From: Polyangiaceae bacterium
GTDB taxonomy: Bacteria > Myxococcota_A > Polyangia > Polyangiales > Polyangiaceae
Length of the DNA: 51,938 nt
Direction: 5' to 3'
NCBI GenBank assembly: GCA_020848455.1
Contig: JADLAB010000309.1
Coordinates: 1-51,938, forward strand
The translations under genes were made by a program, and so were the position numbers. Positions 2,248 to 40,237 of the stretch are shown piece after piece; the stretch's first letter is position 1, and every line of letters starts with the position of its first letter. The notes beneath the pieces are model-generated. The model made no database searches, was not told where the DNA came from, and saw nothing but the letters and a program-made list of their open reading frames with translations.

Positions 2248-3744
2248 TCAGGTCGCGGGGCGCTCGGCGTACAGCTTCGCGTAGCGCCGGGCGGGCCGCT
2301 CCCAGGACAGATCGAGCCTCATCGTGCGCCGTCGCAGCGCCGCCCAGCGCGGGGTGCGCATGGCGCTGAGCGCCCGTTCCACGGCGCCCACGAGCGCGGT
2401 CGTGCTCGGCTCCTCGAAGAGGAAGCCCGTCCCGGTCGCGAGGCCGGCGTCGCAGTCCACGATGGTGTCGCACAGGCCGCCGACGGCGTGCGCGATCGGT
2501 GGCGCACCGTAGCGCTGCCCGTACTGCTGCACGAGACCGCACGGCTCGTGGCGCGAGGGGACGAGCACGGCGTCGGCGGCCGCGAGCAGGCGGTGGCTCA
2601 TCGGCTCGCTCACGCCGCCGAGGTAGCGTGCGCCGGGCTCGCCGCGCACGGCGTCGGTGAGCGCCTGGACGAGCGCCGGGTCGCCCGTGCCGGCGACGAC
2701 GACCTGGCAGCCGGCCTGGGTGAGGCGCGGTAGCGCACTCGCCAGCAGATCGCTGCCCTTCTGCGCGTCGACCCGCCCGAGTGCCACGAGCAGCGGCCGG
2801 TCCGGATCGACGGCGAGCTCGAGCTCGTTGCAGAGCGTCGCCTTGCAGCGGCCCTTGTTGCTGGGCTCCTCCGCGTCGTAGCGAGCCGGCAGGTACGGGT
2901 CGGTCGCGGGGCTCCACACGGCGTAGTCGACGCCGTTCGTGATGCCGACGAGCCGGTCACCGAAGCCCGCGAAGACGCCGTCGAGCCCGTGGCCCCTGGC
3001 TGCCGTGGCGAGCTCGCGGGCGTACGTCGGCGACACCGTCGTGACGACGTCCGCCGAGAGAGCCCCGAGCTTCAGACAGTTGAGCTTGCCGTAGAACTCG
3101 CCGAGCCCCGGGTGGAAGTCGGCCGCGTCGATCCCAAGCTCGAGCGCGGTCTCGCGCGGTGCGACGCCCTGGAAGGCGCCGTTGTGGACGGTGAGCACGC
3201 GCCGCACGCCCTTGCCCCGCAGGAAGTACGGCACGAGCGCCGCCGGCCAGTCGTGCGCATGCACCACGTCGAAGGGCTTTCCCCCCGCGCTGCGACGCAG
3301 GGCGAGCTCTGCCGCCGCGCGGGCGAAGACCCCGAAGCGGAAGACCTCCTCGGGATCGCCCTCGCCCTCACTGCCGTAGACGCCCCGGGCGGCGGCGTGG
3401 CCGGCCTCGGGCGGCTGCTCGGCTCCGCCCACGTCGGTCGCGGCCGGCCGGTCGAACAGACCCGGAACATCGATGAGGACCAGCTCCACGGCGGAGCCGA
3501 GCCGGCCGTCGTAGAGCGTTGCCTCGAGGGGCGCCCCGCCGGCGCGGCTCACGGGCAGGCGCAGCGGGGTCAGCCGTCGGGCCAGCATGGCGCCGCTCGA
3601 CTCGTCGGCACGGTAGCGCGGCATCGCGAGCGTGATCTTGTGTCCCAGACGCGAGAGGGTCTTGGCGAGTGCCGCCACCGCGTCCGCGAGCCCGCCGACC
3701 TTGGCGATCGGGCTCACCTCCGAGCTGACCATGAGTATGTCCAT
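2248..3744 (-). CDS. glgA: glycogen synthase (GT5, ADP-glucose type)
   Basis: A 498-residue protein, the normal family length. It transfers glucose from ADP-glucose to the non-reducing end of an alpha-1,4-glucan in the cytoplasm. The N-terminus MDILMVSSEVSPIAKVGGLA carries the KxGGL nucleotide-sugar motif. DVVHAHDWPAAL, TVHNGAFQG and the C-terminal PSRHEPCGLVQQYGQRYG block (with the conserved Glu of retaining GT-B enzymes) are typical of GlgA. The frame extends upstream, but homology begins at the ATG at 3744. It is divergent from the pseudouridine synthase gene across 190 bp. No clear ribosome binding site lies close to the start. No other glycogen genes are nearby, although pgi follows 1.3 kb away. 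Confidence 0.93.
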   Translation of the reverse strand: MDILMVSSEVSPIAKVGGLADAVAALAKTLSRLGHKITLAMPRYRADESSGAMLARRLTPLRLPVSRAGGAPLEATLYDGRLGSAVELVLIDVPGLFDRPAATDVGGAEQPPEAGHAAARGVYGSEGEGDPEEVFRFGVFARAAAELALRRSAGGKPFDVVHAHDWPAALVPYFLRGKGVRRVLTVHNGAFQGVAPRETALELGIDAADFHPGLGEFYGKLNCLKLGALSADVVTTVSPTYARELATAARGHGLDGVFAGFGDRLVGITNGVDYAVWSPATDPYLPARYDAEEPSNKGRCKATLCNELELAVDPDRPLLVALGRVDAQKGSDLLASALPRLTQAGCQVVVAGTGDPALVQALTDAVRGEPGARYLGGVSEPMSHRLLAAADAVLVPSRHEPCGLVQQYGQRYGAPPIAHAVGGLCDTIVDCDAGLATGTGFLFEEPSTTALVGAVERALSAMRTPRWAALRRRTMRLDLSWERPARRYAKLYAERPAT

Positions 3745-3934
3745 GCTTGCTGCCGTCGCCGCTCCTCGGCGGCCTGTTCCGTCGTGCGCCCGGTCCTGGC
3801 CGGGCCGCGCGCGGCGGCGCAGCTCTACGCCCATGCCCCCACGGCGACAAGCGGCGGCGCGCGCCGGGAGCGCGGCAGCCTTCGACAGGCGGCGCCGTCC
3901 GGGGCAGGATCGCAGCGCATCCCCGCACGGCGCA

Positions 3935-5062
3935 ATGACGACGACCCCGACGCGACCCGACGCCCGAGCCGCCGGCAGCAACGAGCTGCCCTGGCGCGAG
4001 CAGCTGCGCCGCGGTGACGTCGAGGTCGTGCGGCCCACCGAGGTTCCGGCCGACGCGATCGTGAAGCTCCTGCGCGTGCCACCGGAGTCGGCCGGGATGC
4101 GCCTGGACCGCTTCGTCCAGACCCAGCTCCGCGCGACGAGCCGGAGTCGCTCGCAGCGCATCATCGCGCGCGGCGCCTACACACCGGCCGGTGCGCGGCT
4201 GCACAAGAACCACCGGCTCAAGGCCGAGGAGCGCGTCGCCATGTGGCGCGCCCCCTGGGACGAGCTGACGCCCGACATCCCGCTCGCGTACCTCTACGAG
4301 GACGCGCACCTCTTGGCGATCGACAAGCCGCCGTTCGTGGCCGTCCACCCCACGGCGCGGCATCACCGGAGCACCGTCGTCATGCTCCTCGAGGCGCAGC
4401 GCCCCGGCGAGCACCTGACGCTCGGCCACCGCATCGACCGCGAGACGAGCGGCGTGCTCCTCTTGGCCAAGACGCGCGCGGCGGATCGCGCGCTGAAGGC
4501 GATGCTCGAGGCGAAGAGCAACGAGTCGCTCGGCGGCGCCACCCGCGGTGCCCTCGGCCCGAACGGTGTCGTGAAGCGCTACCTCGCGCTCGCGTGGGGG
4601 ACGCCCGCGTGGGACGAGCTCGGCTGCGAGCTGCCGCTCGAGCCCGACGCGGGCAACCCGCTGCGCGTGAAGATGCGCGTGGCCGAGCGCGGCACCGGTC
4701 TGCCCGCCGTGACGTGGTTCGAGACGCTCGGCCGCCGGATCGACCCCACGAGCGGGCGGCGCTACGCGCTCCTGCGGGCGACGCTCTACACCGGCCGACA
4801 GCACCAGATCCGGGTGCACCTCGCCGCGCTCGGGCTGCCGATCGTGGGCGACAAGCTCTACGGGCCCGACGAGCGCATGCTGTCACGCGCCGCCGACGGC
4901 GCGCTCACGGCCGACGATCTCGGCGCCCTCGAGCTCGACCGGCACGCCCTGCACGCGACCGCGCTCGAGCTCGATCACCCGCTCACGGGCGAGCGCGTGA
5001 CCATCGGCTCGCCGCTCCCACCCGACCTCGCGACCTTCTGGGAGCGGCTCGTGCCCGCCTGA
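3935..5062 (+). CDS. RluA-family RNA pseudouridine synthase
   Basis: A 375-residue protein. An S4-like RNA-binding segment at residues about 52-100 (SAGMRLDRFVQTQLRATSRS) precedes the RluA catalytic domain. The signature LGHRIDRETSG holds the catalytic Asp (residue 168), and RQHQIRVHLAALGLPIVGD is the conserved C-terminal motif. It isomerises specific uridines of rRNA or tRNA; the target position cannot be assigned from sequence. The start is the ATG at 3935, the first Met giving a family-like N-terminus; the longer frame upstream runs antisense into glgA. A 40-residue polar N-terminal extension precedes the S4 region. It is convergent with pgi, with only 11 bp between the stop codons. Confidence 0.9.
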   Translation: MTTTPTRPDARAAGSNELPWREQLRRGDVEVVRPTEVPADAIVKLLRVPPESAGMRLDRFVQTQLRATSRSRSQRIIARGAYTPAGARLHKNHRLKAEERVAMWRAPWDELTPDIPLAYLYEDAHLLAIDKPPFVAVHPTARHHRSTVVMLLEAQRPGEHLTLGHRIDRETSGVLLLAKTRAADRALKAMLEAKSNESLGGATRGALGPNGVVKRYLALAWGTPAWDELGCELPLEPDAGNPLRVKMRVAERGTGLPAVTWFETLGRRIDPTSGRRYALLRATLYTGRQHQIRVHLAALGLPIVGDKLYGPDERMLSRAADGALTADDLGALELDRHALHATALELDHPLTGERVTIGSPLPPDLATFWERLVPA

Positions 5063-5073
5063 CCGCGGGCGCC

Positions 5074-6699
5074 TCAGCCCGCCGCCCGGTAGCGCGCGAG
5101 CCAGGGCTCGCCGGCGTGGGCGACCGACAGCTCGCTCACCACCCTGCTGCCAGGGTCGGCCGCGAGATGGCGCAGCACGCGCCACACCGTCTCGACGTCG
5201 TCCGTGCCGAGGCGGGCCGCCAGCTCCTCGGCCGTCGCGGGCCTGCCCGGGTCGGCCGCAAGCGCCGCCCGGAGCTTTTGCTGCAGGCCGAGGATCGCGC
5301 CCGCCGCGCGCTTGCCCGCCTCGACCCCCGGCTGGTGGTAGGCGTTCACGTGCACGAGCGACGCGTACAGCCCGACCGCCCGCTCGTAGAGCGCGACGAG
5401 CGCGCCGAGACGGGCGGCATCGAGCGCCGCGAGGGTGAGCAGCATGTGCCGCCGCCCACGCTCCGAGAGCGCCTGCCGCGTGCCGTGCAGGAAACCCGAG
5501 AGGTAGTCGCCGCTCGTGACGCCCGGCTCCACGTCGAAGCGCGGCCGGCCGGCGGCGCGGTCCTCGAGCACCTCGATGAAGGTCGCGAAGTAGTTGTCGA
5601 GCCCGTCGCGGAGCTGCTGGACGTAGGCATGCTGGTCGGTCGAGCCCTTGTTGCCGAACACGCTGAGACCCTGCGGCGCCGGCCGGCCGTCGAGGTCGAG
5701 CTCCTTGCCGACCGACTCCATCACGAGCTGCTGCAGGTAGCGGCCGAAGAGCTCGAGCCTGTCCTTGTACGGCAGGACCACCATGTCGCGCCGGCCCTTG
5801 CCCTCGCCCGCGAGGTACCAGGCGGCGGCGAGCAGCGCGGCCGGATTCTGCGCGAGCGCCGGGGCGCGCGTCGCCTCGTCCATCGTCCGGGCGCCCGAAA
5901 GTAGGCCGTCGACGTCGAAGCCGGCGAGCGCCGCGGGCAGGAGACCGACGGCGCTCGTCACGCTCGTGCGCCCGCCGACCCAGTCCCACATCGGGAAGCG
6001 TGCGAGCCAGCCCGCGCCGCGCGCCAGGCGGTCGAGCTCGCTGCCGTCCTGGGTCACCGCGACGGCGTGGCGCGCCAGGCTCGAGCCGCGCGCCTCGAGC
6101 GCCGCGCCGATCTCGAGCATGCCATTGCGGGTCTCCTTCGTGCCGCCGCTCTTCGAGATGACGACGACGAGCGCGCGGCCGAGGCCGTCTCCGAGGGCGG
6201 CCGTGAGCCGGTCGATGCCGTCCGGATCGGTGTTGTCGACGAAGTGGAGCGGCAGCGGATCGGCAGCGCCCCCGAGCGCGCCCGCGAGCAGCTGCCCGCC
6301 GAGCGCGGAGCCGCCGATGCCGACGACGAGCACGCGCTCGAAGGGCTCACCCGCCTCTCCCCTACCCCCGACGCGCACCGCGCCGGCGTGCACGTCGCGC
6401 GCGAAGGCCTTCACGTCCGCGACGGCCTGCCGCACGGCCGCACCGAGCTCCGGCTCCGGTGCGAGCTCGGGCGCGCGCAGCCAGTAGTGGCCGACGCGGC
6501 GCCCCTCGTCGGGGTTCGCGACGGCGCCCCGCTCGAGCTCGGCCATGTGCGCGAACGCGCGCGCGAGCGGCGCCGCGAGCGGCGCGTACTCCTCGGGCGG
6601 CGAGCCCATGCCCGACACGTCCACGGTGAGCCCGAGCCCCGGGTGGTGGTAGCTCAGGCGCTGCAACCTCTGCCAGCGAAGGGCGGCGTTCGACGTCAT
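5074..6699 (-). CDS. pgi: glucose-6-phosphate isomerase
   Basis: A 541-residue cytoplasmic enzyme interconverting glucose 6-phosphate and fructose 6-phosphate. Two SIS-type sugar-phosphate regions are visible. [14 protein letters not shown] (about 125-138) and [14 protein letters not shown] (about 181-194) form the first; [20 protein letters not shown] (about 241-260) and [10 protein letters not shown] with [15 protein letters not shown] (about 324-366) hold the second site and catalytic residues. The last 70 residues, after the expected end of the second domain, form an Ala-rich segment containing [20 protein letters not shown] that looks like a small winged-helix-like extension. The start is the ATG at 6699. 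It is divergent from the Gre-like gene, 84 bp apart. Confidence 0.93.
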
Positions 6700-7685: not shown

Positions 7686-8270
7686 TCAGCTGCTCCAGCC
7701 GAGGTCCTCGGCGAGCGCCGTCAGCGTCGCCGCCGACAGCTCGGTCCGGCACTCGTAGCGCGGGTGCTTGACGACGAGCGCGGCGCTGGCCGCGCGGCTG
7801 CGCAAGCGCGCAGCCAGCGGCGCCGGGAGCGGGAGCTTCAGGTAGTGCACGGCCGTCGTGCGGTCGGGGACCGCCTCCGGGCGCTTGCCGACGGCCGGCA
7901 CGAGCTGCCCATCCACCTCGAGGCCGACGTGGTCCTCGAGCCCGGCGAGCTCGCCGAGCATGCGCTCGCGTAGCTCGCGCTCCGGTATCTCGACGAACAG
8001 CGTGAAGGACAGCTCGTCGTCGCCCGGCACGAGCTCGTTGTAGGTATCGATCTCGTGCTGCACGGCCGCCTCGCGGTTGATGCGCTCCGTGCGCAGCATC
8101 TCCTGGATCTGCAGGAGCACCGTGTCGCGGTTCTCGAACGTCGCCGACAGGTGCGCGCCGAGCGCGACGCGCCGCGGGCGCTTGTCCTCGATGACACGGA
8201 CCCGGAAACGCTCGCGCACCAGCTCGTACTCGCCGAGCGGCAGGATCTCGCTCCGTTGGATGGGTTTCAC
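7686..8270 (-). CDS. DUF3501 family protein
   Basis: About 194 residues. [22 protein letters not shown] and the segment [19 protein letters not shown] are hallmarks of DUF3501, a family with no established biochemistry that is often found beside rubrerythrin and a two-cluster Fe-S oxidoreductase, as it is here. The GTG at 8270 is preferred: GAGGGGAG lies 8 nt upstream of it, whereas the alternative GTG at 8279 would sit directly on that ribosome binding site. There is no signal peptide or membrane segment, and only one Cys (in YECRTE), so it is unlikely to carry a metal cluster by itself. A partner or regulatory subunit of the Fe-S protein is inference. The gap to the Fe-S gene is 36 bp. Confidence 0.8.
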
Positions 8271-8306
8271 GGCACACACTCCCCTCTCGTCGTTTCGTGG
8301 TCGCCG

Positions 8307-9626
8307 TCAGGACGGCAGGCCGTAGGCGCGCGCCAGCGCCTCGACCGGATGCATCGCCGGCTTCTTGCGCTCGTGCAGGAGACGCAGCGCCGAGAGCCCA
8401 CAGTCCGTGAGCACGAGGTCGGGCTCGAAGGCGTCGACGTCCGCGACGAGCTTCTGCGCGTAGCGCCGCCCCGTCTCGTAGTGCGCGGCCTTCATGCCCC
8501 AGGTGCCGTCGACGGCAGAGCACTGCTCGACGACGCGCACCTCGGTGTCGGGCACCAGGCGCCCGATGAGCTTGGCCGCCGGGAAGCCGATCTTCTGGGC
8601 GCGCAGGTGGCAGGCGGCGTGATAGGCGACGCGCCCGAGCGGCGTCTTGAAGTCGCGGTTCAGGCGCTTGTCGCGCGCGAGCCGATCGAGGAACTCCATC
8701 AGGTCGAGCGTCGCCCCGGCGACGGTGCGCACGTCGTCCTCGGGTACGTACTCGGGCCACTCGCGCTTCATCGTGTAGGCGCAGGTCGGCGCCGGCACGA
8801 GGATGGGCAGCCCCTTCTTCGCGTGCGGCAGGAGCAGCGGCACGTTGTGCCGCACCTTGGCGACGAAGCGCTCCACGTCGCCGCCGTCGAGGTTCGGCAT
8901 GCCGCAGCAGGTCTCGTCGACGGTGTGCACGCGAAAGCCGTTGTGCTCGAGCACGCGCACGGCCGCCTGCGGGACGCCGGGCGTGTTGTAGTTGCCGTAG
9001 CAGGTGGCGAAGAGCACCACCTCGCCGGCCTCCCCCGCCCGCGCCGCGGGCTCGTGGCGGCGCATCCAGGTCGGGAAGGTCTGTCGCGCCATCGGCGGCA
9101 GCGGGAACTCCGCCGAGATACCCGTCACCACCTCCTGCGCCTTGCGCACCAGCCGGTTCGCGAGCACGAGGTTCGCGATCGGCGCCGCGAAGCCGGAGCC
9201 CAGTTGGCCGACGAGCTGCGGCTCGCCGAGTGCGCGGTCGACGAACGAGACGCCGTCACGCGCCGCGCGGGCCGCCTTCTCGCGCGCCATCAGGCGCGGG
9301 AAATCGAGCAGCTCCGCGGCCTGCTCGTCCGCGGTGTACGGGCACTTGATGTAGCAGAGCTTGCACTGCCAGCACGCCTCGCTCACGACGCGCATGTCGG
9401 CGTCGTGGAGCGCCTCGGCACCGACCGCCCGGTGCGCGTCGATGTCGCGGTCGACCCGGGCGAAGAGCTCCGGGAAGCTGCCGCAGTAGTTCACGCACAT
9501 GCGGCACTCGTGGCACACCTGAAAGGTGCGCCGCAGCTCCGCCTCGAGATCGCGCGCGTCGTAGTAGCGCGGGTCGCTCGGGCTCGCTGCCGGCGGCGCG
9601 GCCGGGAATCGAGAGATCTCCTTCAT
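8307..9626 (-). CDS. two-cluster Fe-S oxidoreductase with CCG domains (GlpC/HdrD-like)
   Basis: A 439-residue soluble protein. Two ferredoxin-type [4Fe-4S] motifs are visible: Cys38, 41, 44, 48 ([11 protein letters not shown]) and Cys85, 88, 91, 95 ([11 protein letters not shown]). Two CCG-type segments follow. The first keeps a full CCG ([14 protein letters not shown]). The second is degenerate, [12 protein letters not shown], resembling GlpC-type proteins. Relatives pass electrons between flavoproteins, quinones or thiol/disulfide partners. The gene sits between rubrerythrin and DUF3501, so an electron-transfer role in peroxide reduction is a reasonable inference. The start at 9626 has GGAAGGAG about 9 nt upstream. 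Confidence 0.85.
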
Positions 9627-9712
9627 GGGCGCACGCTCCTTCCGGGGGGTCGCCCGTGCGCTCGCCACGGCGGAGCTCCGCGGCGAGCGGCAGGGCTGTT
9701 CGTGGCGGGCGG

Positions 9713-10138
9713 TCAGTACTCGCTCAGGCCCTTCAGGGCCTTCTGGAAGCGGCCGGCGTGGGACTTCTCCGCCTTCGCGAGCGTCTCGAACCACTCCGCG
9801 ATGTCCGCGAAGCCCTCGTCGCGCGCCGTCTTCGCCATGCCAGGGTACATCGTCTCGTACTCGTGGGTCTCGCCCGCGACTGCCGAGGCGAGGTTCTTGT
9901 CGGTGGCGCCGATCGGCTTGCCGGTCGCGGGGTCGCCCACCTGCTTCAGGTAGTCGAGATGGCCGTGGGCGTGGCCGGTCTCGCCGTCGGCGGTGTCCTT
10001 GAACAGGCCGGCCACCTCGGGGTAGCCCTCCACGTCCGCAACCTTGGCGAAGTAGAGGTAGCGGCGGTTGGCCTGAGACTCGCCGGCGAATGCGTCCTTC
10101 AGATTCTGGTGCGTCTTGGTTCCATCGAGCTTGGGCAT
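9713..10138 (-). CDS. rbr: rubrerythrin, di-iron domain only
   Basis: A 141-residue ferritin-like di-iron protein. Predicted iron ligands are all present: Glu20 ([10 protein letters not shown]), Glu53 (DGETGHAH), Glu90 and Glu93 ([10 protein letters not shown]), and Glu124 with His127 (AEKSHAGRF). Rubrerythrins reduce hydrogen peroxide to water in the cytoplasm. The usual C-terminal rubredoxin domain with two CxxC motifs is missing: the protein ends at ALKGLSEY just after the di-iron domain and contains no Cys. It therefore needs an external electron donor, for which the neighbouring Fe-S oxidoreductase is a candidate. A very strong ribosome binding site, AAGGAAGGAAGG, precedes the ATG, implying high expression. 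Confidence 0.92.
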
Positions 10139-10212
10139 GTCGTGCCTTCCTTCCTTGTGTCGGTTGCTCGCGTCGCGTCCGAAGGCGCGCGCGTAAACTA
10201 GCGCAGCTCCGG

Positions 10213-10229
10213 CCGGGCAAATCGCCCGG
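10213..10229 (-). terminator. small hairpin just after the Fur-family gene
   Basis: CCGGGC and GCCCGG separated by AAATC form a 6-bp stem beginning 2 nt after the regulator stop codon. There is no T tract in the direction of transcription, so it is more likely an attenuator or RNA-processing hairpin between the regulator and rubrerythrin than a full terminator. It could help rubrerythrin accumulate above the regulator. Confidence 0.35.
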
Positions 10230-10231
10230 GA

Positions 10232-10783
10232 TCAAGTCGTCGGGCGGTTCGGCTGGCGCTGCGGCCGCGCTGCGCGCCCCACCGGCGCCCGGCGGCAGGC
10301 GCCGCACTGTCCGCGGTAGACGTGCTCCACCGCCCGGACGGCGAACCCGGGTGGGGTCGTCGGCTCCGCCTCCCGAGGCCCCGGCTCGGCGCGCCTCACG
10401 TCGTACACGGCACCGCAGGCGTCGCACACGGCGTGGTCGTGGGGCTGCATGTTCGGGTCGAAGCGCGTCGCGCCGCGCGCCGCCGCGCCCGGGCGCCCGG
10501 GGCGCCCGACCGAGAACGACCGCGCCGAGCAGAGCCCCGCCGCCGCGAGGGCTGCGAGCGTGTTGTAGACGGTCGCGAAGCTCATGCCGGGCAGCTGCGG
10601 TCGCAGCCGCTCGAAGAGCTCCTGGGCGGTCGGGTGCGTGTCGTCACCGGAGAGCGCGCGCACGATCGCGAGCCGCTGCGGCGTGAGCTTCAGGCCCGCC
10701 CGACGCAGGACCGCCGGCAGCTCCGCGGCGAGCGCCGGGCCGTGGGCCGCGGCGGATGCGGAGGACGGCTGAGCGCGAGACAT
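10232..10783 (-). CDS. Fur-family repressor, PerR-like
   Basis: A 183-residue protein. The winged helix (about 22-90) contains LKLTPQRLAIVRALS and SFATVYNTLAAL. Putative regulatory metal ligands are His50, Asp109 (TRFDP), His115 and His117 (PHDHAVC); an Asp in the TRFD position is PerR-like. Structural zinc would use CDAC (120-123) and CGAC (160-163). A Pro/Ala-rich insert (about 92-106) and a basic C-terminal tail are atypical. As first gene of a rubrerythrin unit it most likely represses the unit and is inactivated by peroxide; this is family knowledge plus context. TAAGG is correctly spaced from the ATG, and a Per-box-like island overlaps the predicted -10. Confidence 0.88.
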   Translation of the reverse strand: MSRAQPSSASAAAHGPALAAELPAVLRRAGLKLTPQRLAIVRALSGDDTHPTAQELFERLRPQLPGMSFATVYNTLAALAAAGLCSARSFSVGRPGRPGAAARGATRFDPNMQPHDHAVCDACGAVYDVRRAEPGPREAEPTTPPGFAVRAVEHVYRGQCGACRRAPVGRAARPQRQPNRPTT

Positions 10784-10793
10784 GCTGGAACCT

Positions 10794-10808
10794 TAATTAG
10801 AATTATTA
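10794..10808. promoter_or_regulatory. Per-box-like operator
   Basis: TAATTAGAATTATTA is an imperfect 7-1-7 inverted repeat (5 of 7 symmetric positions) in an AT-rich island inside a very GC-rich genome. It matches the Bacillus PerR box TTATAATNATTATAA at 10 of 14 fixed positions. It overlaps the predicted -10 of the regulator gene and ends 10 bp before its ATG, consistent with autorepression. Confidence 0.65.
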
Positions 10809-10833
10809 TCCTCTGCAAGTCTATTTTACTCGA
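10805..10833 (-). promoter_or_regulatory. predicted promoter of the PerR-rubrerythrin unit
   Basis: On the minus strand, -10 GATAAT (10805-10810) matches the consensus at 5 of 6 positions, with a weak -35 TCGAGT (10828-10833) 17 bp upstream. The predicted transcription start is near 10798, giving a leader of about 15 nt. The -10 overlaps the Per-box-like repeat. Confidence 0.5.
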
Positions 10834-10938
10834 AAACGACTGCGGACAGGACCCAGCGCAGACGTGCGGCGACTTCGCCCGGCTCGAGAGGCGTGCGAGC
10901 CCGGGCGGCCCCCGGATGCGGCGTCGCGCTCGCGAGGC

Positions 10939-10967
10939 TTGCGAGGCCGGAATCTTTCTGCCATATT
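10939..10967 (+). promoter_or_regulatory. candidate rpsU promoter
   Basis: -35 TTGCGA (10939-10944), 17-bp spacer, -10 CATATT (10962-10967), each 4 of 6 to consensus. This would give a leader of about 73 nt ahead of rpsU. Evidence is sequence match only. Confidence 0.35.
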
Positions 10968-11046
10968 GCGCCGCCCGATTGGCCGGAAGCGCGCCGTGCG
11001 TCCGGCGCCCGAGAACCGAGCTTCAACGAGAAGGAATCTTCCAGCG

Positions 11047-11268
11047 ATGCCCACCGATGCGATTCAGTGCCGTCCGCTCGAGGTCGTGGTCGGCGACCGC
11101 GGAATCGAGCGCGCGATCAAGCACCTGAAGAGGAAGATGGCTTCGGAGGGCATCCTGCGCGAGCTCAAGCGCCGCCGGCACTACATGAAGCCGAGCGTGA
11201 AGCGCCGCAAGAAGCAGAGCGAGGCGGCGCGCCGTCGTCGCAAGCGTCAGAAGACGGATCTCACCTAG
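11047..11268 (+). CDS. rpsU: 30S ribosomal protein bS21
   Basis: A 73-residue basic protein. The start MPTDAIQCRPLEVVVGDRG, the central IERAIKHLKRKMASEG block and the Arg/Lys-rich tail SEAARRRRKRQK are typical of bS21, which helps the small subunit select mRNA start sites. AGAAGGAA is correctly spaced before the ATG. It is divergent from the PerR-like gene with 263 bp between starts, and the glycosyltransferase gene begins 25 bp downstream, so the two may be co-transcribed. Confidence 0.95.
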   Translation: MPTDAIQCRPLEVVVGDRGIERAIKHLKRKMASEGILRELKRRRHYMKPSVKRRKKQSEAARRRRKRQKTDLT

Positions 11269-11293
11269 CCAGGCGCGGCCGAAGGCCGCAGCC

Positions 11294-12451
11294 ATGCCTG
11301 TGCGCTCCGCGTCCCCGGGTCGGATCGCCGTCGTCACGACGTCCTACCCGTCGCGCGCTGGTGATGCCTCGGGTCATTTCGTCGCGGCGGGCGTGCGCGA
11401 GCTCGTCGCGCTCGGCCACGAGGTCGTGGTGCTCGCCGCCGGGGCGGCGCACCCCGCGACCGGGCCCGACGCGCCCGGCGGCGCCGACGTGCGCTGGTGC
11501 GGCGGCGCGGCGCTCTTCGGCTGGCCGGGCGCGGCCGAGCGGGCTCGCGCCGCACCGTGGCGGCTCGGCGCGCTCGCGCCCTTCGCCCTCGGCTTCGTCC
11601 GTGCAGCGCGGGCCCTCGGACCGCTCGAGCGGGTGGTCGCGCACTGGCTCGTGCCCGGCGGCTGGCCGCTCGGCACGTGGCTCGCCGAGCGCACCGGGGC
11701 GCCGCTCGAGCTGTGGGCCCACGGCAGCGACGTGCGCTTGCTCGTCGCGCTCCCTGCGCGCGTGCGCCACGCCCTCGTGGCGACGCTCGTCGCGCGCGCC
11801 GAGCGGATCTGCTTCGCCGCGCACACCACGCGCACGAGCCTCTGCCAGGCGCTGCCGCACGGGCTGGCCGCCACGCTCGCGGCGCGGAGCGAGGTTCGCG
11901 CTCCCAGCCTCGCGCTCGCCGTGCGCGACGCCGACGGCGCACGGCGGGCGTGGCGCGAGCTCGGGGCCGGCCCCGCCGAGCTCCGCGTCGTCGTCGCCGC
12001 GCGCCTGATTGCGGGCAAGCGCCCCGAGATGGCGGTGCGCGCGCTCGCGGCGGCCGGCGAGGGCCACTTCTTGCTGGTCCTCGGCGACGGACCGGAGCGT
12101 GCCGCGTGCGAGCAGCTCGCGCGCACGCTCGGCGTACGCGCCCGATTCGCCGGCCGCATCGAGCGCAGCCGCGCCCTCGGGCTCATCGCGACGGCCGACG
12201 TCCTCGTGCACCCGGCGGCGATCGACGCCGCGCCGAGCGCCGTCCGCGAAGCGCGCGCCTACGGCGTCCCCGTCATCGCCGCGCCGGCGGGCGATGTGCC
12301 GCGCTGGGCAGAGACGGACCCGGGCATCACGCTCGCAGGAGACGCCGTCGAGCTCGCCGCTCTGCTGCAGCGGGTGCCGCGGCGGCGGGCCCCCGAGCCG
12401 ACCGCACAAAAGGCGAACGCGGAAGCACTCCGGGTCGTGCTTCCGCGCTGA
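11294..12451 (+). CDS. GT4-like glycosyltransferase
   Basis: A 385-residue GT-B fold protein. The N-terminus RIAVVTTSYPSRAGDASGHF is typical of GT4 donor/acceptor domains. The second half contains VVVAARLIAGKRPEMAVRAL, LLVLGDGPERAACEQLA and the terminal block VHPAAIDAAPSAVREARAYG, which corresponds to the donor-binding E-x7-E region, although the first Glu is not clearly conserved. It probably transfers a sugar in cell-surface glycan or lipid synthesis; donor and acceptor are unknown. Its start lies 25 bp after rpsU. A strong hairpin covers its stop codon. It is convergent with ftsZ. Confidence 0.8.
   Translation: MPVRSASPGRIAVVTTSYPSRAGDASGHFVAAGVRELVALGHEVVVLAAGAAHPATGPDAPGGADVRWCGGAALFGWPGAAERARAAPWRLGALAPFALGFVRAARALGPLERVVAHWLVPGGWPLGTWLAERTGAPLELWAHGSDVRLLVALPARVRHALVATLVARAERICFAAHTTRTSLCQALPHGLAATLAARSEVRAPSLALAVRDADGARRAWRELGAGPAELRVVVAARLIAGKRPEMAVRALAAAGEGHFLLVLGDGPERAACEQLARTLGVRARFAGRIERSRALGLIATADVLVHPAAIDAAPSAVREARAYGVPVIAAPAGDVPRWAETDPGITLAGDAVELAALLQRVPRRRAPEPTAQKANAEALRVVLPR
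12418..12447. terminator. 11-bp hairpin at the end of the glycosyltransferase gene
   Basis: CGCGGAAGCAC and GTGCTTCCGCG pair perfectly around an 8-nt loop. The hairpin lies within the last codons of the glycosyltransferase, ending just before the stop. No T tract follows in either direction. Being symmetric and located between convergent genes, it could block read-through both ways or stabilise the mRNA 3' end. Confidence 0.5.
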
Positions 12452-12589
12452 CGGATCGGTCGAGGTCTTAGGCGGCGGGCGCGGCGGGCGCGCGACGCTC
12501 GGCGGCGCGCTCGGGTGCCCGAGCGTGCGGCGCGAGCCCACGCCCGCGGGTGGTGGAGCACCCGTCGGCGCGGGCTCGGGCCCGCGCCC

Positions 12590-13849
12590 TCACTGGCCGC
12601 GGCGCTGGTAGGCGGGCGTGTCCCAGTCGATGTCGCCGAGCGACAGCGCCGAGCGGTCGCGTCCCGCGTGGGCAGCGGGAGCGCTGCTGGCGCGCCGCAC
12701 CTGCGCGGTCGCGAAGTCCGCGGCGACCTCGAGCCGCGGGCGGCTCGTCGAAACGGGGCGGCGGGCACTCGTGGGCTGGGACGCCGGAGGCCGCGCCGTC
12801 GTGGTCGCATGGGCGCTCACGGGCGTCGCGGTCGGCCGCTCGATGGCCACCGCGGCCTCCTCGGTGCTGACGTCGATCTTGTCGTGGTCGAATCCGGTCG
12901 CGATGACGGTGACCTTGATGGTGTCGCCCATGGTCTCGTCGATCGTCGCCCCGAAGATGATGTTCGCGTCCTCGTGCGCCTGCTCCTGCACCAGGGTCGC
13001 GGCATCGCGCACCTCGCGCATCTTCATGTCGGGCCCGCCCACGACGTTGATGAGCACGCCCGTCGCGCCGTCGACCGAGAGGTCGTCGAGCAGCGGCGAC
13101 GTGATGGCGAGCTCCGCCGCGAGCCGGGCCCGGCCCTCGCCCTTGGCGCAGCCGGTGCCCATGAGCGCGCGACCCATGTTCGACATGACGGTGCGCACGT
13201 CGGCGAAGTCGACGTTGACCATCCCGCTCTGGGTGATGAGGTCGCTGATGCCCTTGACCGCCTGGAACAGCACCTCGTCGGCCTTGCGGAAGGCCTCGAC
13301 GAAGGCGAGGTCTTCGTCGGCTAGCGTGAGCAGCTTCTCGTTCGGGATCGTGACCAGCGTGTCGACCGCGGCGCTCAGCATGGCGAGGCCGCTCTCGGCG
13401 CGACGCGCACGCTGCTTGCCCTCGAAGAGGAAGGGCTTGGTGGCGACGCCGACGGTGAGCACGCCCTCTTCACGCGCCAGCTGCGCGATCACCGGAGCCG
13501 CGCCCGTCCCGGTGCCGCCGCCCATGCCCGCGGTCACGAACACCATGTCCGCGCCGGCCACGAGCTCCTTCAGGCGCGCCCCGTCCTCGAGCGCGGCCTT
13601 GCGCCCGCGCTCCGGATCGGCGCCCGCGCCGAGCCCGCGCGTCACCGTGGAGCCGATCTGGATCTTCGAGGGCGCCAGGCAGTGCGCCAGCGCTTGCGCG
13701 TCGGTGTTGACGGCGATGAACTCCACGCCTTCGAGCCCCATGGAGATCATCGTGTTGACGGCATTGCCGCCCGAGCCACCGACGCCGATGACCTTGATCT
13801 TGGCGTCGTAGGAGATGTTGTCGTCTGCGAACTCGATGGAGAAGCTCAT
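12590..13849 (-). CDS. ftsZ: cell division protein FtsZ
   Basis: A 419-residue tubulin-like GTPase that forms the Z ring at midcell. [15 protein letters not shown] (about 20-34), the GTP signature GGGTGTG (about 110-116) and the T7-loop region [13 protein letters not shown] are intact. A Pro/Ser/Thr-rich linker (about 320-395) leads to the C-terminal peptide [13 protein letters not shown], which binds FtsA and other partners. The ATG at 13849 has GGGAGGA upstream; the longer frame has no such support. It is last in the dcw cluster, 132 bp after ftsA, leaving room for an extra promoter. Confidence 0.97.
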
Positions 13850-13981
13850 GTATCCTCCCGGAAATCCAGTACCCACACCGACCCCTGCGCGGGGGTGAAA
13901 CATCGCTGGAGCGCCTCTTCTCCGCGATGCGCCGCGCCGTCGGTCATCCGTCTCTCCGTCACCAATCCCCCTCGTGCCGGC

Positions 13982-15268
13982 TCAGAACGCCGCCCTGAAC
14001 CAGCTCAGCAAGCGCGAGCCCGAACGCTTGTTCTCGGTACGCATCATGCGCTCGGCCTCGCGCAGCGACTCGGGCGGCGGCTCGATGACCGCCTTGCCCC
14101 GCACGCTGGCGAGGGCGCTCGCGCCGTAGCGCACCAGGCCCACGCCCGTGGCGTACTGCGGCCCGGCGACCAGCTGGGTGATGCCGCGCACGCCCTGCGG
14201 TACGCCGAGCCGCACGGGCATGCCCAGGATCTCCTCGGCGAACTCGCACATGCCCTCCATGAGCACGGCGCCGCCGGTGAGCACCGCGCCGGCCGACAGC
14301 TGCTCGAGCAGCCCGGTCTCCTCGATGCGCGTGCGAATGACCGCGAAGATCTCCTCGATGCGCGGCTCGATGATGTCGGAGAGCAGGCGCCGGGGCACCA
14401 CGCGCGCGGCGTGGCCGCCCACGCCCGGCACCTCGATCTCCTCGTCGTCGGCCACCATGCGCCCGAGCGCGCAGCCCACGTTGCGCTTCAGGCGCTCGGC
14501 CTCGCCCATCGGCGTGCGCAGCCCCGCGGCGACGTCGGCGGTCACGTTGTTGCCACCGACCGGGATGACGCCCACATGGCCGATGCCGCCGTCCACGTAC
14601 AGGAGCACGTCCGTGGTACCGCCGCCCACGTCGATCACCGCGACGCCGATCTCCTTCTCGTCCTCGGAGAGCACGGCGTCGGCACTGGCGAGCGGCTGCA
14701 GCACCACGTCGGCGACCGTGAGCCCACAGCGCTCGGCGCAGCGCACCACGTTCTGGACGGGGGACGCGGCTGCGGTGATGAGGTTCGCGTGGACGCCCAG
14801 CCGCACGCCGCTCATCCCGACGGGATCGCGGATGCCGTCCTGATTGTCGACCACGAACTCGTGCGGCAAGACGTGGAGGATCTGCCGGTCGGCGTCGATG
14901 GGGATGGCGCGCGCCCCCTCGAGGACGCGCTCGACGTCCTCCGGATTGACCTCGCCACCCGAGATGGCGGCCACGCCGTCCGAGTTCTGCGAGCGGATGT
15001 GGCTGCCGGACACGCCGGCGTACACCGTGCGGATCTCCACTCCCGCCATGGTCTGCGCCGCGTCGAGCGCCTCGGCGATGGAGCGCGTGGTCCACTCGAT
15101 GTTGGACACCACGCCCTTGCGCAGGCCGCGGCACGGGACGTTGCCCACGCCGAGGATGGTGATGCCGTCGCCGTCGACTTCGCCGACGACGGCGGACACC
15201 TTGGTGGTCCCGATGTCGAGGCCGACCACGATCTCGCTGTTGTCCATTCGGCTACTCATGCCGCTCAT
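13982..15268 (-). CDS. ftsA: cell division protein FtsA
   Basis: About 428 residues. An actin-like ATPase that tethers FtsZ to the membrane. Visible motifs are VVGLDIGTTKVSAVVGEV (phosphate 1), AVIDVGGGTTDVLLY (phosphate 2) and LTGGAVLMEGM (adenosine). The C-terminus SGSRLLSWFRAAF fits the amphipathic membrane-targeting helix. The start is uncertain: ATGs at 15268, 15259 and 15247 are in frame, and the only ribosome-binding-like GGGAG (15272-15276) is close to the first and 12 nt from the second. It follows ftsQ by about 105 bp that include an A/T-rich stretch. Confidence 0.95.
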   Translation of the reverse strand: MSGMSSRMDNSEIVVGLDIGTTKVSAVVGEVDGDGITILGVGNVPCRGLRKGVVSNIEWTTRSIAEALDAAQTMAGVEIRTVYAGVSGSHIRSQNSDGVAAISGGEVNPEDVERVLEGARAIPIDADRQILHVLPHEFVVDNQDGIRDPVGMSGVRLGVHANLITAAASPVQNVVRCAERCGLTVADVVLQPLASADAVLSEDEKEIGVAVIDVGGGTTDVLLYVDGGIGHVGVIPVGGNNVTADVAAGLRTPMGEAERLKRNVGCALGRMVADDEEIEVPGVGGHAARVVPRRLLSDIIEPRIEEIFAVIRTRIEETGLLEQLSAGAVLTGGAVLMEGMCEFAEEILGMPVRLGVPQGVRGITQLVAGPQYATGVGLVRYGASALASVRGKAVIEPPPESLREAERMMRTENKRSGSRLLSWFRAAF

Positions 15269-15373
15269 TTGCTCCCGGCCGACGGTCGCGCCGCGCAGCC
15301 GAGCCGAACCTGGCATGCGCCCCTCGGGCTGGCCAAATTTTCACGGCCGCAAAGTCGAAAAGAATCGCGCGCG

Positions 15374-16261
15374 TCACTGCATCCTCACGACGACGCGCTC
15401 GGGATGCGCCTCGTTGTCCAGGAACACCACGGCCGGCTTGCCCTTGCGGCGCGCCACCTCGAAGAGCACGCGCGCCGCCTTGTCGACCTTCAGCCGGTAC
15501 GGCGGCTGACCGAATGCCAGTGTCACCCCCTGACTCCCCACGACCACGGTGATGCTGTCGTCCGGTTCGAGGTGAATCTCCTGCAGGGGGTAGTTCTTCG
15601 CGAGCCCCACACGCTCGAGGTCCTCACACAGGTCGAGGGCACGGCGCAGGCGCTCCTGTACCTGGGGACGATCGCGGGCAATCTCCTCGGTGCCGATGCC
15701 GGTCACGACCGGGAGATCGCTGGGGTCGCCCGGGCCGAGCGCCTTGAAGGACATGCCCTTGCGGTCCACCAGGAGGAGCTGGCCGGCGATGGATGCCAGG
15801 GCGACGGCCTCGCGCTCGACGACGTCGATGTGCACCGTGCTCGGCAGCTCCGTCGCGACCCGCGCACTCTCGATCCACTCGTCGGCCTCGACGCCCGCCT
15901 TCGCCGCCTGCTCCTCGAATGCGAAGATGTTCTTGCCGATGTCCGCGCCGGCACGCTTGGCGATCTCCTGCGGCGTGCGGCGCGCGTTGCCGCTCACGAC
16001 CACGGTGCGAATCGCGAAGCGCTGGCTCGAGCGCAGGTAGCGGCGCAGGCCCCAGCCCACCAGGATCGACGCCGCCACGACCACGGCGACGCCCGTGAGG
16101 AGCTGCAGCCGACGCAGCCACGCGCGCGGACGCCGCGGCGCGCGCGCCACCCCTGCGGCGCCCCGCGCCGCGGGCGGCGAGGTGCTCGACGCCGCGACGT
16201 CGCGCACGGCCGGGCCGTCGCCCTCCGGCACCCGACGATTGGGCGGCGCCAGCGACGTCAT
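15374..16261 (-). CDS. ftsQ: cell division protein FtsQ/DivIB
   Basis: A 295-residue bitopic inner-membrane protein linking FtsL/FtsB to the divisome. A Pro/Arg-rich cytoplasmic N-terminus (about 50 residues) precedes one membrane segment ([19 protein letters not shown]). The POTRA domain opens with [19 protein letters not shown] and includes [17 protein letters not shown], and the FtsQ domain ends in [10 protein letters not shown]. The ATG at 16261 overlaps the murC stop by 4 nt (ATGA). In many bacteria murB and/or ddl lie between murC and ftsQ; neither is here. Confidence 0.93.
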
Positions 16262-35908: not shown

Positions 35909-38900
35909 CTAGACCTCGGCCCGCTCGCCCTCGACCGCCCTCGGCCTCGGGGGCGCGACCGCGGCCTCGCCGCGGCGCCTCTGGAAGCGCTCCTTCACGT
36001 CGAAGGCGAAGGTGTCGAGGATCGCCGGATCGATGGGGTCGCCGTTGAGGGGCAGGGTGAGCGACAGCAGCCCTTCCTTCTCGGCAACGTGGAAGAACTG
36101 GGACTCGGCGATCTTGTTCGGCATGCACTCGTGCGGGCCGACGCTGACGACGCCGTCGATGTGCCCGTGGCGCCATTCGTGGATCGGCCCGCCGAGCGTG
36201 AGCACCGCCTCGCCGCACAGGTCGGCGCGGAGGTAGCCCGACGAAGCGTCGAGCGCGTCCTTGACCGTGGTCCGCTCGTGCCAGCCGAGCGCCGCGGCCA
36301 TCACGGCGTAGGTCTTGTTCTGGATGCGCCTCTGCACGAGGCTCGAGAGCTCTGCCGACAGACCCACGCGCGAGCCGCGCAGGCGCGTCACCCAGTCCGA
36401 GTACTCGAGCCACTCGCTGAACGGGGCGAAGCGCGCCCGGATGCCGCGGCGCTCGAGCTTCTCGATGACGAAGTCGTTCGCGAACGGGTCGCAGCGCACG
36501 TAGATCTCCCCGACGACGAGCACGGTCGGGACCCGGCGCCCCGAGCGCGCCCGCGCGAGCTCGGCGCCAGCGCGGCGCAGCAGATCGGCGCACCCGAAGA
36601 GCCGCCCGCTCGCCGCCTGCACGAAGGCATTCGGCAGCGACAGATCCCCGCTGCCCGCCGACTCGAGCAAGCGGCAGAGCTCGCGCCGGTAGCGCTCGAA
36701 GATGGCGTCGGCCGCGCCGGGCGTGCGCTCGACGGGGCGCACGTCGTAGAGCGCCTCCTGGAGCACGTCGAAGGCCGCGAAGCCCGTCATGACGAGGGCC
36801 GCGAAGCCGCCGGGCACCCCCTCGAAGTAGTCGCTGTCGGCGGGCGACCAGATCGACACGCGCTCGCCCTGCCCCACCCGCTCGAGGATCAGCCGGTGGA
36901 GCATGTTGTAGGCGCCGAAGCGGCACGGTCCGTCGGCCGTGGGCATGAAGAAGGCGAAGCGCGCCTTCGGATCGGGCTCCTTCGCGAGCCGCGCCAGCAG
37001 GCTCCCCGCCGTGATGCTCATCGGCAGGCACTCCTTGCCCGAGGTGTGGCGCCGGCCGAGGCGCAGAGCCTCGCGATCGGGCAGCGGCAAGGTCTCGGCG
37101 CGAACGCCGATGCCGCGCAGGCACGCGGCCATGGCCTCGGCCCCGGCGCCCATGCGGGGCACGAGCAGCGTCTCGCCCCGCGCGCGGATCTCGCGCAGGC
37201 CGTGCACGCGCCGGTCGATGCGCGCGAGCTCCTGCGCCGCCCCGGCCTCGGCTGCGCGTGCCTCGGCTGCGAGGTGCTCGCGCACGCAATGCAGGAAGGC
37301 CTCGACCCGGGTCTTCGTACCGGCGTCGCCGGAGTGCCCGTCCGTCTCGACGATGGCGAAGGGCTTGCCCGCCATGGCGTAGGCGTAAAAGTGCAGGTTG
37401 AAGCTGTCGGGGCCGCACGAGTAGTTGCTGCACCACAGGCTGTAGACCCCGGGCATGCGGCGGATCTGGTGGGCGGCTCGCAGGTTGCGCTGTCCCTGCC
37501 CCCAGTACATGCCCTCGACGCCCGGCACCTCGTCGGCCACCGGGTAGCAGTCGACCGGGATCGCGAGCGCCCCCTGCTCGCGCAGCAGCGGCGGCACGTG
37601 CGAGTTGAGGACGTCGTTGTAGATCGTGTAGGGGCGCCCGAGCACGACCACCGGCACGATGCCGGTCTCGACCGCGAAGGCGAGCGCGCGCCGCCCGATC
37701 TCGAGGCACTGCCGGTCGAAGGCGAGCTGCGCGTGGCGCGCGCGGCGCAGGGCCTGCGCCACCGTCACCGGGCTCGCGCCGAGCTCCGCGCCGAGCTTCT
37801 CGCAGGCCGCGCGGAGCGGCGCCGCGTCGAGGTTCTCGGGCCCGAAGTCGATGACCGGCGAGAGGATCTTCGCCCCGGCCACCGCGCCGAGGTCGTGCCG
37901 CAGGAGATCCGGGCTCGCCTGCACGATGGGACAGACGACCGCGTGGCGCTCCTTGGCCACGCGCGGCATCTCGCGCACCATGGGCGCGAACACGAAGGCG
38001 ACGTCCTCGGCCGCCATGGCGGACACGAGCCCGTGGTAGTGCTGCATCGGCGCGCAGAAGGGCACGTTGGCCTTCTCGATGCCGCGCTTCAGGGTCTTGC
38101 CGCCGGCACTCGTCACCAGCGTGACGTCGAGGCCGAGCTCGTAGAGCAGCGTGGCGAAGAAGGGGAAGGTGCCCTTCAGCTGGAACTCGTCCGTCATGGC
38201 GACGCGGCGCCGTCCGCGCGAGGTGGTCACGCGCCGCACGATGGCGTGCACGAGCGCTTCCCGCTCGCGGAACGGATCGGGCGCGCGATCGGGGAGCTTC
38301 TTCTTGCCGGTGCCGCCGTCCCACAAGGAGCAGCCGCCGCCCCAGGTGAAGCGCCCCCGCTCGGAAGCGACGCGGGTCGCGATGCGATCGATGCGGCAGC
38401 GGTTGCCGGCCCCACCGCAGCCCTTCGTCGACTTGCACACGAAGGTGTCCTTTTCTACGACGGTGGCCTCGAGGAAGCGCGCCGGGGCGAGCGCCGCCTG
38501 GTCCGCGACGGGGAGCGCCTTGCGGCACAGGAGCGCGATGCCGAGCGCCCCCATGATCCCGGGGCTCGGCGGCACCACCACCTCGCTGCCGGTCTGGCGC
38601 GCGACGGCCGCCGCGAGCGCGTCGGCCGCGAAGGGCATGCCCTGGCAGAACACCACCTGCCCGACCGGACGGCTGCCCTTCACGCGGTTCAGGTAGTTCT
38701 GCACGATGGAGTCGTAGATGCCGGCGATGACCGCGCGGTTGTCGACGCCCGCGGCGACCGCCTCGTCGATGATCTCGGCCATGAACACCGAGCAGTGCTG
38801 CCCGAGCGACACGCCGCCGGTCGCGCACAGGGCCTCAGCTCCGAGCTCGGCCACGCTCCCGATGCCGGCGAATTTCCGCCCCTGCTCCTCGATGAACGAG

Positions 38901-40237
38901 CCCGTGCCCGCGCTGCACGCCTCGTTCATGGCGGCGTCGACCACGCGCCCCTCGGCGAGGCGGATGTACTTCGCGTCCTGGCCGCCGATCTCGAAGATGG
39001 TGTCGACGCGCGGGTCGCACGCGAGCGCCCCCTCGGCGTGCGCGGCGATCTCGTTGAGCACGTACACCCGCTCCGAGCCGAAGGTGCTCGCGAGCAGCGA
39101 CCCCACGATCTCGCGACCGCTGCCCGTCACGCCGAAGCCGACCACCGGTCGACGGGCGAGCGGGCTCGCCACGAACTGGCGCATGAGCCCCTGGGCCGCT
39201 CCGACCGGATCGCCGTTCGTGTACAGGTAGGCGTCCCACGCGGCCTCGCCCCGCGCGGCGTCGAGCGCGACCACCTTCGAGCCCGTGGAGCCGATGTCGA
39301 AGCCGAGAATGACCGGCGCGTCAGTCGCGAGCGCCTCCGGCGCCGCCGCGCGCCGCGGCAGGCGCCGCACCCGGGGCAGGTAGCTCGCCAGGGCCGGCAA
39401 GCGCTCCAGGTGCGCCTCCTCCGGCGCGCACAAGAGGCGGTCGAGCGGCGGCACCCGTAGCGCGCTCGTGGCGGCCGTCGCCGCGCAGCCGAGCGCCTCG
39501 AGGAAGAGCGCGTCGTCGTCGCTATAGGGCAAGAGCGTCATGCCGTGCCGCTCGCAGAAGCGGCGGAAGCTCGCCTGCACGCGTGCCGCGCGCATCACGC
39601 CGCCGATGAGCAGCATCGCGGGCGGGCTCGCCTCGGGCTTCACGAGCACCTGCACGTTGTCGCACACGGCGTCGTAGAGGCCGGCGAGGATGCGCGCCCG
39701 GCTCTCGCCGCGGTTCGCGAGGTGGGTCATGTCGGTCTTCAGGATGACGGGGCAGCGGCCCGAGAGCGCCGCCGGATCGGGCACGTCGGCCGCAAGGGCG
39801 CTCGCCGCGGCGATGTCGAGGTCGAAGCGCTCGACGAGCTGCCGCAGGAAGTTGCCGGTGCCCTGCGAACAGCGCGAGTTCTCGCGCAGCACCTCGGCGC
39901 CGCTCGGGCGCAGCTCGAGCACGGAGAAGCCGTGCGAGCCGATCGACACGATCGTGGCGGTCCCTGGCCCGTGCCGCCACGCGAAGCCGGCCGCCTGCGC
40001 GCGCTTGCCCGGCACGCGCGGCAGATCGACCAGGCGACCGAGACGGCCCGCCACGGCGGCGCCCGCGACGCCGGCGAAATCCCAGTCCGCGAGCGCGCGC
40101 GTGACGACCGCCCCGGGCTCCTTGTGGTGCTCGTAGAGCGCTCGCCTCGTCCACATGAGCTCGGCGCCTCGGCGCTCGAGCTCCACCAGCTTGACCGTCT
40201 CCGCCCCGATGTCGATCCCGACGTACCGCTTCGCCAT
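35909..40237 (-). CDS. giant tandem acyl-CoA dehydratase activase fused to DUF2229/HgdB-like regions
   Basis: A 1442-residue protein. Two BadF/BcrA/HgdC ASKHA ATPase domains lie in tandem. Domain 1 (about 1-265) has GIDIGAETVKLVEL with Cys123 (SRCSQGTGNF) and Cys162. Domain 2 (about 308-580) has LGFDIGSTGSKVVAL, FEIGGQDAKYI, Cys441 (ACSAGTGSF) and Cys482. In HgdC the equivalent Cys pair, one per subunit of the dimer, holds a [4Fe-4S] cluster at the interface. A Cys-rich link follows (Cys601, 607, 614, 636), then DUF2229 and HgdB-like regions (about 690-1420) with further conserved Cys such as WCSNYSCGPD (936, 941) and SGKECLPM (1070). Activases use ATP to inject low-potential electrons into a 2-hydroxyacyl-CoA dehydratase or double-cubane reductase. 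No partner gene is adjacent. Function of this fused class is unproven. Confidence 0.88.
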   Translation of the reverse strand: MAKRYVGIDIGAETVKLVELERRGAELMWTRRALYEHHKEPGAVVTRALADWDFAGVAGAAVAGRLGRLVDLPRVPGKRAQAAGFAWRHGPGTATIVSIGSHGFSVLELRPSGAEVLRENSRCSQGTGNFLRQLVERFDLDIAAASALAADVPDPAALSGRCPVILKTDMTHLANRGESRARILAGLYDAVCDNVQVLVKPEASPPAMLLIGGVMRAARVQASFRRFCERHGMTLLPYSDDDALFLEALGCAATAATSALRVPPLDRLLCAPEEAHLERLPALASYLPRVRRLPRRAAAPEALATDAPVILGFDIGSTGSKVVALDAARGEAAWDAYLYTNGDPVGAAQGLMRQFVASPLARRPVVGFGVTGSGREIVGSLLASTFGSERVYVLNEIAAHAEGALACDPRVDTIFEIGGQDAKYIRLAEGRVVDAAMNEACSAGTGSFIEEQGRKFAGIGSVAELGAEALCATGGVSLGQHCSVFMAEIIDEAVAAGVDNRAVIAGIYDSIVQNYLNRVKGSRPVGQVVFCQGMPFAADALAAAVARQTGSEVVVPPSPGIMGALGIALLCRKALPVADQAALAPARFLEATVVEKDTFVCKSTKGCGGAGNRCRIDRIATRVASERGRFTWGGGCSLWDGGTGKKKLPDRAPDPFREREALVHAIVRRVTTSRGRRRVAMTDEFQLKGTFPFFATLLYELGLDVTLVTSAGGKTLKRGIEKANVPFCAPMQHYHGLVSAMAAEDVAFVFAPMVREMPRVAKERHAVVCPIVQASPDLLRHDLGAVAGAKILSPVIDFGPENLDAAPLRAACEKLGAELGASPVTVAQALRRARHAQLAFDRQCLEIGRRALAFAVETGIVPVVVLGRPYTIYNDVLNSHVPPLLREQGALAIPVDCYPVADEVPGVEGMYWGQGQRNLRAAHQIRRMPGVYSLWCSNYSCGPDSFNLHFYAYAMAGKPFAIVETDGHSGDAGTKTRVEAFLHCVREHLAAEARAAEAGAAQELARIDRRVHGLREIRARGETLLVPRMGAGAEAMAACLRGIGVRAETLPLPDREALRLGRRHTSGKECLPMSITAGSLLARLAKEPDPKARFAFFMPTADGPCRFGAYNMLHRLILERVGQGERVSIWSPADSDYFEGVPGGFAALVMTGFAAFDVLQEALYDVRPVERTPGAADAIFERYRRELCRLLESAGSGDLSLPNAFVQAASGRLFGCADLLRRAGAELARARSGRRVPTVLVVGEIYVRCDPFANDFVIEKLERRGIRARFAPFSEWLEYSDWVTRLRGSRVGLSAELSSLVQRRIQNKTYAVMAAALGWHERTTVKDALDASSGYLRADLCGEAVLTLGGPIHEWRHGHIDGVVSVGPHECMPNKIAESQFFHVAEKEGLLSLTLPLNGDPIDPAILDTFAFDVKERFQRRRGEAAVAPPRPRAVEGERAEV

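Follow-up and report, generated by a model that had tools for sequence, protein, structure and literature searches.

A minus-strand gene in the window, the whole 51,938-nucleotide stretch of Polyangiaceae DNA that was analysed, encodes a protein that by its architecture, length, cysteine pattern and phylogeny is almost certainly a member of the PlsA/Ger family of anaerobic plasmalogen synthases and glycerol ester reductases. The branch to which it belongs probably makes lipid ethers, each protein acting as a self-contained glycerolipid ester reductase; we infer this chemistry and substrate from those of the PlsA/Ger family. This branch is distinct and little studied, but it belongs to a known enzyme family. 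The earlier note had proposed that the protein may drive an undescribed low-potential reduction. That idea is not supported: studies of PlsA and Ger from 2021-2026 have published an ester-to-ether activity for the same architecture.

The open reading frame of the earlier note is real and lies on the minus strand (Table 1). It encodes a pair of activase (ASKHA) domains, followed by a Cys-rich link and a pair of HgdB-like domains; the plus-strand reading of the same interval is not the gene. The orthologue in a genome of the same genus is 95% identical with a dN/dS of 0.13, and the gene is under purifying selection. Its third-position GC is 0.96. Fourteen cysteines are invariant in all 64 full-length homologues among the matches listed and follow a 4+4+3+3 pattern: residues 123, 162, 441 and 482 in the activase, 601, 607, 614 and 636 in the link, 728, 769 and 941 in Red1, and 1070, 1105 and 1371 in Red2. 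Such invariance excludes a chance explanation. The further cluster ligands that had been suspected beyond the activase domains are thus present.

Table 1. Features of the 1442-residue protein and their positions in the window.
Feature	Position	Strand	Description	Basis
Whole gene	35909..40237	(-)	1442 aa; predicted single-chain Ger/PlsA-type ATP-driven Fe-S reductase	Homologues, dN/dS
Act1, residues 1-262	39452..40237	(-)	ASKHA activase, Cys pair, degenerate phosphate motifs	Pfam, motif table
C123 + C162	39752..39871	(-)	First cluster Cys pair	Invariant 64/64
Act2, residues 306-575	38513..39322	(-)	ASKHA activase, DIGSTGSK and IGGQDAK intact	Pfam, structure match
C441 + C482	38792..38917	(-)	Second cluster Cys pair	Invariant 64/64
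Cys-rich link, residues 596-640	38318..38452	(-)	C601/C607/C614/C636	Invariant 64/64; kept in PlsA-type references
Red1, residues 645-1000	37238..38305	(-)	HadC/BzdN/DCCP-like; C728/C769/C941	Pfam DUF2229, structure, Cys 64/64
Red2, residues 1001-1430	35948..37237	(-)	Second HgdB-like domain; C1070/C1105/C1371	Profile homology to Red1

Both ATPase domains are recognised by Pfam BcrAD_BadFG (PF01869), with 50.2 bits for Act1 and 72.3 bits for Act2 at a cut-off of 31.5, and a sequence search of the PDB with the N-terminal half matched activases only. The Act2 model superposes on the solved activases 4ehu, 4eht and 9gai_D over ~258 residues (VIA-align Z 28-29, rmsd 2.0-2.2). The spacing of the two Cys pairs is as previously noted, 39 for C123/C162 and 41 for C441/C482; the solved activase 4eht (HadI) also has 39. 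In HgdC-type activases, the two Cys of each protomer meet in one cluster between the protomers; here both pairs are present in the part of the protein covered by an AlphaFold model of residues 1-1000, built on homologues (pLDDT 89.5, pTM 0.89). The proposal that one chain may mimic the activase dimer is consistent with this, and the chain as a whole carries a putative activase pseudo-dimer together with a reductase-like pair. Throughout the branch, Act1 has GAETVK in place of GSTxxK at phosphate-1 and SIGSHGFSV in place of IGGQDAK at phosphate-2. With the phosphate-binding motifs of Act1 gone, the activase is predicted to be asymmetric, and this degenerate Act1 is the new detail. When the ATPase domains were placed individually in a tree, the Act2 domains all formed one clade (0.94), separated by one branch from all Act1 domains. 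Such a split suggests that the two domains were joined once, long ago, and did not arise by a recent duplication.

The four cysteines of the link probably form an extra [4Fe-4S] site. In the reductase half, Pfam DUF2229 is found at residues 681-897, and an AlphaFold model of residues 590-1442, likewise built on homologues, has a pLDDT of 91.0 and a pTM of 0.89. Red1 aligns with HadC, DCCP, BzdN and MbdN-type chains in VIA-align (Z 12.8-15.1, rmsd ~4.2-4.5, 268-285 residues). Its best match is 3o3n_B (Z 15.1); the top ten rows are all HAD/BCR/DCCP and the next rows are at 8.8. The direct structure match of Red2 is weak, limited to its C-terminal alpha/beta part and to other families with Z up to 8.8, and the domain is therefore assigned through its homology with Red1 (hhalign probability 96.8, E 2.3e-10, 293 columns, three Cys in register). 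The HgdB-like regions of the earlier note are in this way backed by structure for the DUF2229 domain and by profile comparison for the C-terminal domain. Their HgdB-like sequence score is weak, as Pfam HGD-D (PF06050) gives 12.7 bits on the window protein, under its cut-off of 28.4. In a PDB profile search, the C-terminal half gave only marginal DCCP matches, such as a weak one of the C1371 region (E 0.049).

The Act1-Act2-Red1-Red2 plan is that of PlsA. A single gene of 4.2-4.9 kb is reported to encode it in Enterococcus, Lactococcus and Bifidobacterium, and a pair of genes, plsA-plsR, in Clostridium perfringens; expression of PlsA in E. coli leads to plasmalogens (PMC12838417). Related papers describe the formation of alkyl ethers in E. 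coli by the Ger proteins of T. maritima and D. alkenivorans (PMC11150832), name one plsA homologue, Tmari_0479, in T. maritima (PMC8788747), and present Ger and PlsA as inseparable by sequence (PMC13274423, PMC11868695). The window protein has the same plan in one chain of ~1400 residues, with two PF01869 activation domains and all 14 shared Fe-S cysteines, C607 being offset in the alignment with the Thermotoga protein. By BLASTP it matches the Thermotoga homologue over the full length (573 bits, 30% over 1410 residues), and in a multiple alignment the same pair is 29.1% identical, so that it reaches the published threshold for Ger homologues, an E-value of up to 1e-30 with an identity of 30% or more, with borderline identity. 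The 1,860,725-bp Thermotogota genome that gave the 573-bit match is presumably that of T. maritima MSB8. The protein, encoded at 0.51 Mb, is the sole strong homologue there, and as the only full-length one in that genome it would be Tmari_0479, the tested protein. In our tree, the window protein and proteins of Thermotoga, Clostridia and Desulfobacterales form a clade with full support. The PlsA-type proteins of Listeria, Collinsella, Fusobacterium and Acetoanaerobium lie outside that clade; they also keep 14/14 Cys.

The window protein resembles the Ger proteins of T. maritima and D. alkenivorans in domain order, similar length, two activation domains and 14 cluster Cys; the sequence comparison was with the Thermotoga protein. 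Act1 of the Thermotoga protein is degenerate too (GVCIGSSSVSFY, VSAGGENTIL). The differences from Ger are the identity of ~30%, the Polyangiaceae host and the separate, well-supported branch of the window protein, with GAETxK and SIGSHGFSV in Act1. PlsA of Enterococcus, Lactococcus and Bifidobacterium and PlsA-PlsR of C. perfringens share its domain plan, whereas the PlsA-type references are only 20-24% identical to it, form a separate clade and have near-canonical phosphate motifs in both ATPase domains (GST, GGEDAK). The systems HadBC/HgdAB with HadI/HgdC share the fold of the activase and the spacing of 39 between its Cys, and BzdO and HadB also have three Cys per reductase domain, where they hold a [4Fe-4S] cluster with an open site. 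Unlike HadBC/HgdAB, the window protein is a single chain with a sub-threshold PF06050 score, a four-Cys link and, as predicted, asymmetric ATPases. The asymmetry recalls BcrD of the same genome, in which the phosphate-2 motif is also lost (MGALHARA). Class I benzoyl-CoA reductases (BcrCBAD, BzdNOPQ, MbdONPQ) and DCCP share the Red1 fold and the activase pair. However, they consist of separate subunits, four in the class I enzymes, and their double-cubane subunits have six Cys where each half of the window protein's reductase has three.

To our knowledge, the mechanism of the PlsA/Ger family is largely unstudied. For the window protein, we infer the cluster types, the order of electron transfer and the use of ATP at a single site purely as a working scheme. 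Act1 and Act2 would pack together as the two protomers of HgdC do, with one [4Fe-4S] cluster shared by C123, C162, C441 and C482, and the activase would be loaded by a low-potential ferredoxin, for instance one reduced by PFOR. Hydrolysis of ATP would then push the electron to the three-Cys [4Fe-4S] clusters of Red1 and Red2; it probably occurs at Act2 only, since the phosphate motifs of Act1 are lost. The four-Cys link could possibly be the electron entry point or a relay. Red1 and Red2 would reduce the ester carbonyl at the sn-1 (perhaps sn-2) position of a phospholipid to an ether, an alkyl ether being likelier than a vinyl ether.

With its own activase pair and reductase pair and no conserved partner gene, the protein retains the character of a self-contained ATP-driven reductase that it was first given. 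Neither the window nor the 8 kb around the gene at ~80 homologous loci offers a partner: no neighbour is common to the wider branch or to the 80 loci, only generic genes being found. The window gene is surrounded by pheT and by genes for an M20 amidohydrolase, an enoyl-CoA hydratase and a GlcD-like oxidase. These give no hint of a pathway, and no lipid-synthesis gene adjoins the window gene. The region is syntenic in the same-genus genome. Two candidates were rejected. The FAD oxidase, 2.3 kb away, was considered as an alkylglycerone-phosphate synthase but is GlcD-like, and a neighbourhood match at five loci is a Ser/Thr kinase. A leuD-like gene 14-78 bases after the homologue was seen only in four planctomycete/anammox-type loci (L141, L101, L104, L118).

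Among the matches listed, the branch (at least 46% identity) includes proteins of Myxococcota, Verrucomicrobiota and Acidobacteriota, with Geothrix terrae and Anaeromyxobacter oryzae among the carriers, as well as single MAGs labelled Riflebacteria and Omnitrophota. In the Geothrix genome, the orthologue is the sole strong full-length match. A Black Sea survey gives Ger homologues, by the homology threshold named above, in 61 of 347 Myxococcota MAGs (PMC11868695). The analysis of co-occurrence covered 60 genomes of Polyangiaceae, the family to which the window belongs, and 14 of them have the branch protein. Full-length PFOR is encoded in 13 of these 14 carriers and in 7 of the 46 other genomes (p 1.8e-7; p 8e-5 in the better genomes). 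None of the 14 carriers has a member of PF10520, the family of O2-dependent plasmalogen desaturases, against 15 of the 46 others (p 0.013); this exclusion loses its significance when only the better genomes are counted (p 0.16), and a difference in lifestyle alone could account for it. As the genomes are related, these p-values are not independent tests. Class III ribonucleotide reductase, an anaerobe marker, is nearly absent in the family and hence uninformative.

The same genome has several related systems. Contig C145 (L011, ~7900-15500) carries bcrC-bcrB-bcrA-bcrD-like genes of a class I benzoyl-CoA reductase beside enoyl-CoA hydratase and oxo-hydrolase-like genes, which suggests anaerobic aromatic degradation in this Polyangiaceae bacterium, and contig C22 (L012, 1-3200) carries an HgdA/HgdB-like pair with a single activase. 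The earlier note had allowed that an unfused dehydratase/activase pair elsewhere might account for the activity. Such systems do exist here, but they do not explain the window protein away. A second fused paralogue on contig C430 (L010, 8337-12611) is 33-36% identical and has the 4+4+3+3 Cys plan; magnesium-chelatase-like genes lie upstream of it. On contig C9 (L009, 11202-16938), a split relative consists of a 1220-aa double activase with DUF2229, both of whose ATPase sites are intact, followed by a 674-aa protein that has no significant Pfam match and carries the Red2-type Cys. The split relative is widespread in the window's family, including large complete genomes. DUF2229 matches also occur in Thermus and Deinobacterium, and a related system therefore exists in aerobes.

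Identity to the tested enzyme of only ~29-30% speaks against the lipid-ether reading, and with both a fused paralogue and a split relative in the genome at least one of these proteins may have another job. The protein could be a Ger/PlsA paralogue whose branch has shifted to another carboxyl ester, a thioester or an aromatic with the same ATP-driven machinery. We consider this unlikely while giving it some weight: its distance from the tested enzymes and the occurrence of several fused paralogues within one genome would fit such a shift, as would the inactivity in E. coli of D. alkenivorans Ger2, a close paralogue, described in the Ger study (PMC11150832). However, the 14 cluster Cys and the full domain plan are unaltered, the branch is nested in one clade with the Thermotoga protein, and no substrate-specific neighbour gene is conserved. 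Also unlikely is the idea that the branch, as found in Myxococcota, Acidobacteriota and Verrucomicrobiota, serves a separate function together with an asymmetric activase that hydrolyses ATP at only one of its two sites; that function may be on another ester or thioester, or may be specific to one position or one kind of ether lipid. Overlapping with the main reading is the sub-case of a plasmalogen synthase, with a vinyl-ether product, instead of an alkyl-ether Ger. As the two activities are inseparable by sequence it has to be considered, but the grouping with Thermotoga and Desulfobacterales, and not with the PlsA-type proteins of Listeria, Collinsella, Fusobacterium and Acetoanaerobium, makes it rather unlikely, as do the two activation domains reported for validated Ger (PMC13274423).

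The other two explanations are far less probable than these. The protein might be an alternative activator of the HgdAB- or BcrBC-type enzymes encoded in the same genome, and PF06050 does co-occur with the branch (10/14 carriers, 5/46 others). However, four carriers (G042, G057, G058, G060), one of them 99% complete, are without any PF06050, and the window protein is therefore neither dependent on nor an accessory of these enzymes. With activases of their own at the bcr and HgdAB loci, and reductase domains in the window protein itself, the activator role is mostly refuted. A single-chain DCCP-like double-cubane reductase of small molecules would agree with the match of the Red1 fold to DCCP (Z 14-14.6) and with the weak resemblance in sequence between the C1371 region and DCCP. 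In BzdN and DCCP, however, six cysteine thiolates bind the double cubane (PMC11971306), and Red1 and Red2 have three invariant Cys each; no double cubane is therefore expected in either, and a function of this kind is very improbable.

An aerobic Elb/Agps route to ether lipids is known in Myxococcus. The preferred reading, a glycerolipid ester reductase, suggests that beside it an O2-independent route to ether membrane lipids exists in anaerobic or facultative Polyangiaceae-like myxobacteria, which bears on the source organisms of ether lipids that serve as environmental markers. For the whole enzyme family, the degenerate Act1 and the invariant Cys in their 4+4+3+3 arrangement offer targets for mutagenesis and spectroscopy. 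Two other homologues depart from the common plan. In the L075 protein (1365-6191), the N-terminal ATPase domain falls in a different clade of paralogues and the remainder in the window's branch, possibly a domain swap. A homologue on a Paraclostridium plasmid (L161, 2638-6486) has neither the link Cys nor the three Red2 Cys and may be a truncated activase-plus-Red1 form.
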